Source of the DNA: an uncultured Eubacteriales bacterium
GTDB lineage: Bacteria; Bacillota; Clostridia; Lachnospirales; Bianqueaceae
Direction of reading: 5' to 3'
Assembly: GCA_900315265.1 (NCBI GenBank)
Contig: OMYN01000003.1
Location: forward strand, 1-64,000
Length of the DNA stretch: 64,000 bases
The position numbers and the translations under genes were made by a program. The notes below the pieces were generated by a model that ran no database searches, was not told the DNA's origin, and saw only the letters and a list, made by a program, of their open reading frames with translations. This document shows, one piece after another, positions 43,477 to 46,921 of this stretch (its first letter is position 1; every line of letters begins with the position of its first letter).

Positions 43477-44043
43477 TTACGAACGTCCCAGATATTCCCC
43501 GGTCCTGGTATCGATTTTGATTTTCTCGCCTTCGTTGATGAAAAGCGGTACCTGAACGGTTACACCGGTCTCAACTTCTGCGGGTTTCAGGGTATTGGTA
43601 GCGGTATTGCCTTTAACGCCCGGCTCGGTATGAGTGACTACAAGGTCAACGAACTGAGGCGGCTCGATTCCGAATACATTGCCCTCATGGGACATGATCT
43701 TGACCTTTTCGTTTTCCTTGACGAATTTCAGAGCGTCGCCGATCTGGTTCTTGGAAAGAGCGATCTGCTCATAGGTATCATCGTCCATGAAGTAGTAAAG
43801 ATCTCCGTCGTTGTAAAGATATTCCATATCCTTACGCTCAATGGTAGCACGGTCTACTTTTTCGGTAGGACGGAAGGTACGCTCGATGACACCGCCGTCT
43901 ACGATATTTTTAAGCGTGGTACGAACGAAAGCAGCGCCTTTGCCCGGCTTAACATGCTGGAACTCGATGATCTGATAAAGACCGCCCTCATACTGAATCG
44001 TTACGCCATTTCTGAACTCACCGGCGCTGATTACGTCTGCCAT
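43477..44043 (-). CDS. efp: Elongation factor P
   Basis: 188 residues in three beta-barrel domains; relieves ribosome stalling at proline runs. The modification loop reads [13 protein letters not shown], with Lys at the usual site. [25 protein letters not shown] is typical. AGGAGG precedes ATG. It follows the AroK-AroQ fusion after 65 bases, recalling the aroQ-pepP-efp neighbourhood of other Firmicutes, but pepP is absent. Confidence 0.97.
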
Positions 44044-44108: not shown

Positions 44109-45143
44109 TTACTTGATTTTCCTGCTTATTTCAACTGTTTTTTGCAGATATGCCACTATCCTCTTCATTCCCTCGACATAGGAATCAAAGCCCAGCCCGG
44201 CGATCTGGCAATAGCAGACATCCTTGAGGACACTTTCGTGCCGGAAGGATTCCCGCGCCTGAATGTCTGAAATGTGGACCTCGGCAAAGGGAATGTCTAC
44301 CGAAGCAATGGCATCCCTGAGAGCTATGCTGTAATGGGTATAAGCCCCGGGATTAAAAACGACTCCGTCGATTTTTTCAAAGTAAGCCTGCTGGATACGG
44401 TCTACCAGAGCGCCTTCATGGTTGGACTGATAGAAGATCGTTTCCACGCCTATCTCTTCCCCTTTTTGGCGAAGATACTCCACCAGGGCATCGTAATTTT
44501 TGGTCCCGTAGATAGCGGGCTCCCGGATCCCCAGAAAGTTCAGATTGGGTCCGTTCATGATCAGGATCTTAGGTTTATCCGTCCGCATGGTATTCTCTTC
44601 TTTCTGTTTTTGTTCCATCATTTCCATAATGGAATCCGCCGCCTGGCCGGGCGTCGATCCGTCCACATCCAGTATCTTAGAGGCCGCCTTTTCATAATAA
44701 GGCTTGCGCTGAGCCAGCATAGAGGCGATCCTGTCCTTTTTCTCCTCTTCCGTATGAGCCGAAGCCAGCATGGGGCGCGAAGACGTATCTCCCAGCCGCT
44801 GTAATATGACCTCTTCCGAAGCCTTCAGATAGACGACCAGCGCATGGGAATGAGCCAGCATAGCGCAGTTTACGTCATTTACCGGAGTTCCTCCCCCCAT
44901 GGAGATGACCCCGTCCTTATCATTGACTGCTTCTCTCAGTGCTGCCCTTTCCAGAAAGCGGAAATAGGCCTCTCCGGACTCTTGGAAAATGTCGGGGATG
45001 GTCCGCCCATCTTTTTTCTCAATGATCTGATCCAGATCCTTAAAGGAACAGCCCAGCTTTTGAGCCAGCACTTTGCCGACGGTCGTTTTACCGCTGGCCA
45101 TATAACCGATCAGAATGACCGGGAACGAAACCTTCATACGCAA
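44109..45143 (-). CDS. Fused shikimate kinase (AroK) - type II 3-dehydroquinase (AroQ)
   Basis: 344 residues. Residues 1-175 are shikimate kinase: Walker A GYMASGKTT (13-21), the DLDQIIE shikimate-binding Asp, SMGGGTP, and LID-like SSRPML. A 10-residue Gln/Lys/Glu linker (178-187) joins a complete type II dehydroquinase (about 188-344) with R207, Y212, N264, H270 and H290-R297. It therefore catalyses step 3 (3-dehydroquinate to 3-dehydroshikimate) and step 5 (shikimate to shikimate 3-phosphate). Both parts have all catalytic residues I can check. An internal Met at 186 with no strong ribosome binding site could give free AroQ. The start overlaps the YqeG-AroE stop by 10 bases. Confidence 0.93.
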   Translation of the reverse strand: MRMKVSFPVILIGYMASGKTTVGKVLAQKLGCSFKDLDQIIEKKDGRTIPDIFQESGEAYFRFLERAALREAVNDKDGVISMGGGTPVNDVNCAMLAHSHALVVYLKASEEVILQRLGDTSSRPMLASAHTEEEKKDRIASMLAQRKPYYEKAASKILDVDGSTPGQAADSIMEMMEQKQKEENTMRTDKPKILIMNGPNLNFLGIREPAIYGTKNYDALVEYLRQKGEEIGVETIFYQSNHEGALVDRIQQAYFEKIDGVVFNPGAYTHYSIALRDAIASVDIPFAEVHISDIQARESFRHESVLKDVCYCQIAGLGFDSYVEGMKRIVAYLQKTVEISRKIK

Positions 45144-46567
45144 TTCTCCGCCCTTTCCATAAAGGACCGGAACATCGATTCGCTCTCCTGATAGGTGAAC
45201 TTTTTACCTGTCCATATCTCAAAAGACCGGATCCCCTGGTAAAAGAGCATACTCAGTCCTCCGACCGCGGTCCCCCTGCCCTGACGCACTTTTTTCATGA
45301 AAGCCGTCTCGGAAGGATTGAACACCATATCCAGAGCAAAACGGATCTGGCTGTAAAACGTTTCTTCTCCCTCCGCCAGGCTGACCGGGAGCATGTCGAC
45401 ATTCGGCGCCATACCGGCGGATGTCGTGTTGAAAACAATAGTGAATTCTTCTTTGACCAGGTTTTCGGCGCTGACGGTCCTCAAACGGGTATCCTTATCT
45501 CCTCTTTGACGGATGCGATCCTGGAATTCCTTGACCAGGGCCTTGGCTTTGTCCTGAGTCCGGTTGAAAATCACGATCTCGGAAGCTCCCATCAGATAAG
45601 AAACGGCAACGGCGCTGTGGGCAGCTCCCCCGGCGCCTAAGATCAGCACTTTATGTCCCTTTACAGGCACTTTGGCCAGCTGGACCAGATGCGAAAAGCC
45701 GTCCACATCCGTGTTATAGCCGACGTACCCTTCCGGAGTCCATTTCAGAGTATTGACAGCCCCTACCAGCTGGGCGGAAGGATCGATCCGGCAGCACAGC
45801 TTCATGACTGCCTGCTTGTGAGGAATGGTCACATTGATGCCGGCAATATGAGCGGCATAGGCCCCCTTGATAAAGTCCTCCAGCCCTTCCTTTTTTACAT
45901 GAAGGGCTATGTAAGCATAATTTTCGTTGATGTGGTCGATAAGGATCTGATGAATGACCGGAGACAAGGTGTGGCCGATAGGATCTCCGATGACCCCGAA
46001 AAGAGTCGTATTACCGTCGATTCTCATGTCGGCCCTTCTGTCTTTGGAAGCCGCCAGCTTTTTAGGAACGATCCCCAGCTTGCGGATGATCCTGGCTTCT
46101 GCCTTGCGGCGGGCTTTGACCTGCTTCTCATCATGTTCCAGCGAGATGGGCCGGACTAAGATTCCGTAGCTGTTACTGCGCCTTGCCAGGTGGGCATCCA
46201 TAAAGACCTGATCGCCTATGACAGCGACCTTTCCCTTCAGATCCGGCGCCTGTTTCAAAAGTCTTTTGTAGCCGAACATCAAAGGTTTGGCTGCCCGGCT
46301 GGTCCCCTCTACCTGCAGCTGTTTTTTGATACTTTCCACCCGTTCAGAGCGGCCGTTGGACAGAAGCCAGACGGTAAAGCCCTTCTCCTTTAGGCGGGCA
46401 AACATTTCTTTTACCGGGACCGGGACCGTATCGGTGTCGAAGAGCATCAGGGTATTATCGATGTCGAACATCAACCCCCTGATCCCTTTTCCCCACAGGG
46501 CGTCGAAATCTATATCACTGACCGAAGCGACATATTCATCCGGTCTGAATCTTTCAATCATAACCAA
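45134..46567 (-). CDS. Fused YqeG HAD phosphatase - shikimate dehydrogenase (AroE)
   Basis: 477 residues. The N-terminal part (1-170) is a YqeG-type HAD phosphatase, as in phosphatidylglycerophosphate phosphatases (FDIDNTL with D35 and D37, LLSNGR, KP, GDQ). The C-terminal part (about 187-477) is AroE: GDPIGHTLSPVIH, K251 in NVTIPHK, D287 in NTDVDG, and GAGGAA (311-316) for NADPH. In Bacillus, yqeG and aroE are close but separate (with yqeH between), so this looks like fusion of neighbours. The reading frame is continuous, with a Lys/Arg-rich linker near 150-182. It starts 9 bases after hisI, in the his transcript. Confidence 0.92.
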   Translation of the reverse strand: MVMIERFRPDEYVASVSDIDFDALWGKGIRGLMFDIDNTLMLFDTDTVPVPVKEMFARLKEKGFTVWLLSNGRSERVESIKKQLQVEGTSRAAKPLMFGYKRLLKQAPDLKGKVAVIGDQVFMDAHLARRSNSYGILVRPISLEHDEKQVKARRKAEARIIRKLGIVPKKLAASKDRRADMRIDGNTTLFGVIGDPIGHTLSPVIHQILIDHINENYAYIALHVKKEGLEDFIKGAYAAHIAGINVTIPHKQAVMKLCCRIDPSAQLVGAVNTLKWTPEGYVGYNTDVDGFSHLVQLAKVPVKGHKVLILGAGGAAHSAVAVSYLMGASEIVIFNRTQDKAKALVKEFQDRIRQRGDKDTRLRTVSAENLVKEEFTIVFNTTSAGMAPNVDMLPVSLAEGEETFYSQIRFALDMVFNPSETAFMKKVRQGRGTAVGGLSMLFYQGIRSFEIWTGKKFTYQESESMFRSFMERAENCV

Positions 46568-46576
46568 TCCGGGCTA

Positions 46577-46921
46577 TTAGTAGCCTTCTTTCCCCTCTTC
46601 ATAGACCAGATGCTGGTCAAAGCAGGAATCCGTCCCCATATGACAGGCCGGTCCGTCTTTGTGCACCTGGATCAGCAGTGTATCTTCGTCACAGTCAGTC
46701 TCGATCGAGACCACATGCTGCACATGGCCGCTGGTTTCGCCCTTTCGCCACAGACATTTGCGGCTCCTTGACCAGAAACAGGTCCTTTTCTCCCTGAGCG
46801 TGATCATGAGGCTTTCTTCATTCATCCAGGCTACCATCAGCACCCGCTTGCTGTCCATATCCTGTACGACCGCAGGGATCAGTCCCTGGTCATTGTAATG
46901 GATCGTTTTCAGATCAAACAT
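46577..46921 (-). CDS. hisI: Phosphoribosyl-AMP cyclohydrolase
   Basis: 114 residues, with the zinc and catalytic signature [30 protein letters not shown] and [11 protein letters not shown]. It is the stand-alone HisI domain; the HisE pyrophosphatase domain that is often fused or adjacent is missing. Last gene of the histidine set. Confidence 0.95.

Follow-up and report, generated by a model that had tools for sequence, protein, structure and literature searches.

What does it mean that enzymes for three steps of the shikimate pathway, and a phosphatase unrelated to that pathway, are encoded by only two genes? In the window, which is the whole stretch of 64,000 nucleotides analysed here and comes from a gut-type Clostridia genome, two continuous and intact ORFs lie side by side on the minus strand. 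The upstream one encodes YqeG~AroE (45134..46567, 477 aa) and the downstream one AroK~AroQ (44109..45143, 344 aa). Judged by their length and homology, chance is ruled out as the source of either. A first reading of the locus, made from the sequence only, had described adjacent fusion genes overlapping by 10 bases. The adjacency and the overlap hold, but its size hinges on the start codon: the TTG at 45143 gives 10 bases, whereas an in-frame ATG at 45137 leaves only the four bases ATGA (45134..45137, minus strand), where the AroK ATG (45137-45135) lies over the AroE TGA stop (45136-45134). Both starts have the same Shine-Dalgarno energy (-7.2). Likewise, the YqeG~AroE frame opens with a TTG (46567) but could equally well start from the ATG at 46561. 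A promoter and terminator scan revealed no enrichment over shuffled sequences.

All four domains were recognised at near full length by Pfam and NCBIfam, and the motifs expected from family knowledge were read against solved relatives. The N-terminal domain of YqeG~AroE (46076..46549, minus strand; residues 7-164) is a YqeG-family HAD IIIA-type phosphatase, scoring 93.7 bits against TIGR01668 (cut-off 89.1) and 29.8 bits against PF09419 (cut-off 20.4), with the motifs FDIDNT, which supplies DxDxT, and GDQVFMD. It is followed by the shikimate dehydrogenase AroE (45158..46021, minus strand; residues 189-464; TIGR00507, 221 bits, cut-off 200.2). Alignment to its best solved relative, 1nvt, showed HTLSP, NVTIPHK, NTD, GAGGAA, NRT and YQG to be kept, including the catalytic Lys and Asp and the NADP-binding GAGGAA and NRT. 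AroK~AroQ begins with the shikimate kinase AroK (44616..45122, minus strand; SKI, residues 15-176; PF01202, 148 bits). Compared with the Mycobacterium tuberculosis kinase 2iyq, it retains GYMASGKTT, DLD, FR.LE, GGG, SRPML and QRKPYY, and with them Walker A, the shikimate-binding Asp and Arg, GGG and the lid Arg. The C-terminal half is the type II 3-dehydroquinate dehydratase AroQ (44139..44573, minus strand; DHquinase_II, residues 192-329). It is a full-length match to PF01220 (185 bits) and to TIGR01088 (174.6 bits, cut-off 169.85), and its active-site motifs LGxREPxxYG, QSNHEG, NPGAYTH, EVHIS and RE.FR are in place. The key catalytic residues had been proposed to be kept in every domain, and the comparison with solved relatives (AroQ, 2iyq, 1nvt) and the YqeG sequence itself bear this out. 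Each domain most likely performs its own standard reaction, AroE at step 4, AroK at step 5 and AroQ at step 3.

The two fusions are the sole AroE, AroK and AroQ detected in the genome (97% complete), which yielded no class I AroD. They belong to a cluster, yqeG-aroE-aroK-aroQ-efp, that is common across the order and is old. Downstream lies efp (43477..44043, minus strand), the same neighbour as in G001, G002, G017, G004-G010 and many other genomes of the order. Upstream lies hisI (46577..46921, minus strand; PF01502), found at the same place in G001, G002, G013, G014, G017 and G018. HisI is 114 aa long here and lacks the HisE half, against 214-232 aa in those relatives whose locus was checked; tblastn found no HisE-like sequence within the 64-kb window.

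The locus was compared in 19 genomes of the family, with G000 denoting the genome under study. The doubly fused form occurs in G000, G001 and G002, the latter two carrying both fusions at the same place (51%/52% and 49%/47% identity). G017 has the same order, yqeG-aroE-aroK-aroQ, as four separate genes. In G004-G008 the locus reads yqeG-aroE-aroK, in G009 and G010 yqeG-aroK with no aroE beside it, and G013, G014 and G018 have hisI-yqeG-efp with no aro genes at the locus, so that the family displays a gradation of forms. A different fusion, AroE~AroK, is found at another place in G011, G012, G015 and G018. In four family members (L075, L076, L077 and L078), AroE~AroK measures about 414-425 aa and is accompanied by aroQ, with no yqeG or efp beside it. 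The AroE part there is only about 30% identical to that of G000, which suggests that the aro genes were replaced.

Trees of the flanking genes and of the aro genes agree in placing G017 beside G000 and G001 with G002 (91/94 and 100/99). Since the unfused G017 sits beside G000, both fusions either arose twice, or had a single origin and were both reversed in G017; parsimony favours neither parallel fusion nor fission. When the three fused genomes were placed in one group, the aro-gene tree rejected this arrangement (p-AU 0.004), whereas the flanking genes did not (p 0.10).

A wider survey, in which ORFs were read around matches in 295 genomes of the order, found AroK~AroQ in 22 of them, spread over six families and nine genera. 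Many relatives of these genomes have the same gene order unfused. On a tree of AroE, AroK and AroQ (52 rows), the state changes nine times in all bootstrap trees, and at least five changes are forced by strong branches. The sequence-only reading had called for mapping both architectures across genomes and onto a tree; AroK~AroQ proved recurrent, while YqeG~AroE is rare. Outside the order, no AroK~AroQ fusion occurred among class-sample matches passing E 1e-52, a limit that can miss distant cases. Many further fusions were at first indicated by open-frame or joined search matches; most turned out to be separate genes once the ORFs were read.

The junctions differ in whether the second enzyme could still be made on its own. 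In G017, each junction has its own stop and ATG, and aroQ has a strong Shine-Dalgarno sequence. In G000, the AroK-AroQ linker (44574..44615, minus strand) contains an in-frame ATG (44588-44586), 11 codons ahead of the AroQ NGPN motif, whose Shine-Dalgarno energy of -2.9 is at background level (median -2.7). With no good internal ribosome-binding site left for AroQ, this fusion looks hardened. G001 and G002 have no usable AroQ start left at the junction, and throughout the AroK~AroQ fusions of this family (f1) and of genera g73 and g124 of family f11 an internal start is either missing or no better than background. By contrast, fused frames in f17, f6 (genus g63), f2 and f5 keep the old AroQ start, an ATG or in one case a GTG, with strong Shine-Dalgarno energies of -6.5 to -12.3, so that free AroQ may still be made. 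Among the loci where such a ribosome-binding site and start codon were seen in frame inside AroK~AroQ are L146, L103, L106, L152 and L154. The two kinds of AroK~AroQ look like stages of one process, loss of the stop followed by loss of the internal start. The stop-free YqeG-AroE linker of G000 (46022..46075, minus strand) has an ATG in frame, close to where AroE used to start. Its moderate Shine-Dalgarno energy (-5.0) ranks among the strongest fifth of the background, and some free AroE may thus be produced.

These findings are very probably explained by two ordinary bifunctional fusions that arose from the old yqeG-aroE-aroK-aroQ-efp cluster when stops or frame breaks between co-transcribed neighbours were lost. 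In the starting state, the adjacent genes would have abutted or overlapped and, as we infer, have been co-transcribed. Loss of a stop codon or frame break would then turn two products into one chain, so that the products of the two fused genes come in a fixed 1:1 ratio, and in some lineages the internal AroQ start would be lost later. YqeG would have been joined to AroE through neighbourhood rather than a shared reaction. That neighbours were fused after their order had been fixed had already been proposed, and agrees with the same order being unfused in G017 and across the order. The recurrent joining of AroK and AroQ resembles a tendency of closely packed neighbours more than it does a new machine, and neutrality or simple co-production would be the reason for the fusions. 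Against this explanation stands the coupled gain or loss of the two junctions, which simple accident leaves unexplained.

Selection for equal dosage or co-folding of the enzymes, with no channelling involved, is possible but rather unlikely. It would fit the gain or loss of AroK~AroQ in at least five places and the lost internal starts in f1 and in g73 of f11. However, most genomes that share this gene order manage well with separate genes, and the partner of AroE differs between relatives.

An assembly of all three enzymes, in which AroQ, AroE and AroK hand 3-dehydroshikimate and shikimate directly to one another, as raised in the sequence-only reading, is improbable. Steps 3, 4 and 5 do lie on two overlapping genes, both fusions co-occur in G000, G001 and G002, and the domains of consecutive steps are close together in fungal AROM (PMC6851490). 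An AROM-type channelling complex has consecutive steps on one chain, but AroK~AroQ combines steps 5 and 3, with step 4 elsewhere. Moreover, the fusion partners vary among relatives, YqeG~AroE was not seen in 19 of the 22 genomes with AroK~AroQ, and some of the fusions retain an internal AroQ start. AroK~AroQ was modelled as a monomer with the help of 24 related proteins; the model had a mean pLDDT of 82.7 and a pTM of 0.53, which leaves the relative orientation of the domains uncertain and likewise speaks against channelling. AroQ was modelled confidently and most of AroK well; the linker helix and the kinase lid were weak, and confidence was lowest at residues 159-169, just before the linker. 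The best PDB matches of the model were type II dehydroquinases, aligned over about 140-150 residues only, among them 6hs9 (TM-score by target length 0.94).

Known fusions of this pathway provide a comparison. The fungal AROM pentafunctional polypeptide (DHQS-EPSPS-SK-DHQD-SD) likewise fuses AroK, a dehydroquinase and AroE; unlike AROM, the present locus uses two chains, its dehydroquinase is of class II, and it includes an unrelated HAD phosphatase but no AroB or AroA. Plant and chlamydial AroD~AroE also bring a dehydroquinase and shikimate dehydrogenase into fusion proteins, but these are consecutive steps with a class I dehydroquinase, whereas here AroQ sits with AroK. In bifunctional AroK/AroB (NF010556, NF010627), shikimate kinase again forms the N-terminal half of a protein that unites two enzymes of the pathway; the C-terminal partner here is AroQ, however, and the score is far below the cut-offs of NF010556 and NF010627. 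The AroE~AroK fusion described from Methanomicrobiales and from two bacterial assemblies (PMC11237513) also joins neighbouring shikimate genes, but as a different pair. Where the text of that study deals with chorismate fusions, it mentions AroD~AroE and AroE~AroK, and not AroK~AroQ or YqeG~AroE; among the literature searched, we found no paper on either of the latter two.

Within the order, G000, G001 and G002 are the only genomes with a fused YqeG~AroE. A distant family of the same class (f94) has it too: each of the five genomes that gave a match carries the fusion, with a shortened AroE part in G667. The linkers there are 5-8 residues long, compared with 15-20 in the family of G000, which makes a separate origin likely. 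Unfused, yqeG-aroE adjacency extends across the phylum, and all pairs checked in the phylum sample were adjacent but separate. In Bacillus subtilis, yqeG, yqeH and aroE (old name aroD) share one operon (PMC5080769), as yqeG and aroE would here, but unfused and with yqeH between them.

The YqeG domain is most likely a HAD phosphatase of uncertain substrate. It matches the PGP phosphatase family PF09419, and PgpA is absent from this genome; on these two grounds a role as a lipid-phosphate enzyme is plausible. Solved structures offered only weak HAD similarity, and YqeG of B. subtilis was a weak 5'-nucleotidase when assayed (PMC5080769). It is hardly likely that YqeG owes its attachment to an action on some phosphate of the shikimate pathway or to a regulatory effect on AroE. 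The adjacency across the phylum and the fusion in two distant families could be read in that sense, but G013, G014 and G018 keep yqeG between hisI and efp without aro genes, G009 and G010 have yqeG beside aroK with no aroE, and the PF09419 similarity and missing PgpA point to lipid phosphate. A shikimate-unrelated phosphatase would be attached to AroE because yqeG simply adjoins aroE.

A larger complex, gained or lost as one, in which an AroQ dodecamer bearing twelve kinases docks AroE~YqeG and YqeG serves aromatic metabolism, would account for the joint presence of both fusions but is improbable. Sequencing or assembly errors are scarcely credible: the nearest relative, G017, is unfused, but G001 and G002 carry both fusions, with junctions that have no usable AroQ start, and these two genomes and the junction reading led us to reject a frameshift or assembly error.

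Loss of stops between neighbours thus remains the preferred reading, and it gives the locus a wider use. In one cluster, related species show separate overlapping genes, fusions with an internal start and fusions without one, which represent stages of gene fusion. Having these stages side by side makes the assumption that fusion means functional linkage testable. YqeG~AroE serves as a caution when function is predicted from fusions, since its two halves were probably joined only as neighbours.

The YqeG~AroE loci of family f94 are L205 (4914-6236), L217, L221, L218, L219 and L220, and AroK was not detected at any of them. In L205, the genes after the fusion are one for a xylose isomerase-like TIM barrel, then aroQ and efp, and G670 of the same family has two YqeG~AroE copies. 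Neighbouring genes are joined in other combinations in relatives as well, as AroE~AroK and AroQ~AroE. The latter was seen in G062 (L199, 4316-5554), where a class II AroQ~AroE of 412 aa pairs the consecutive steps 3 and 4.
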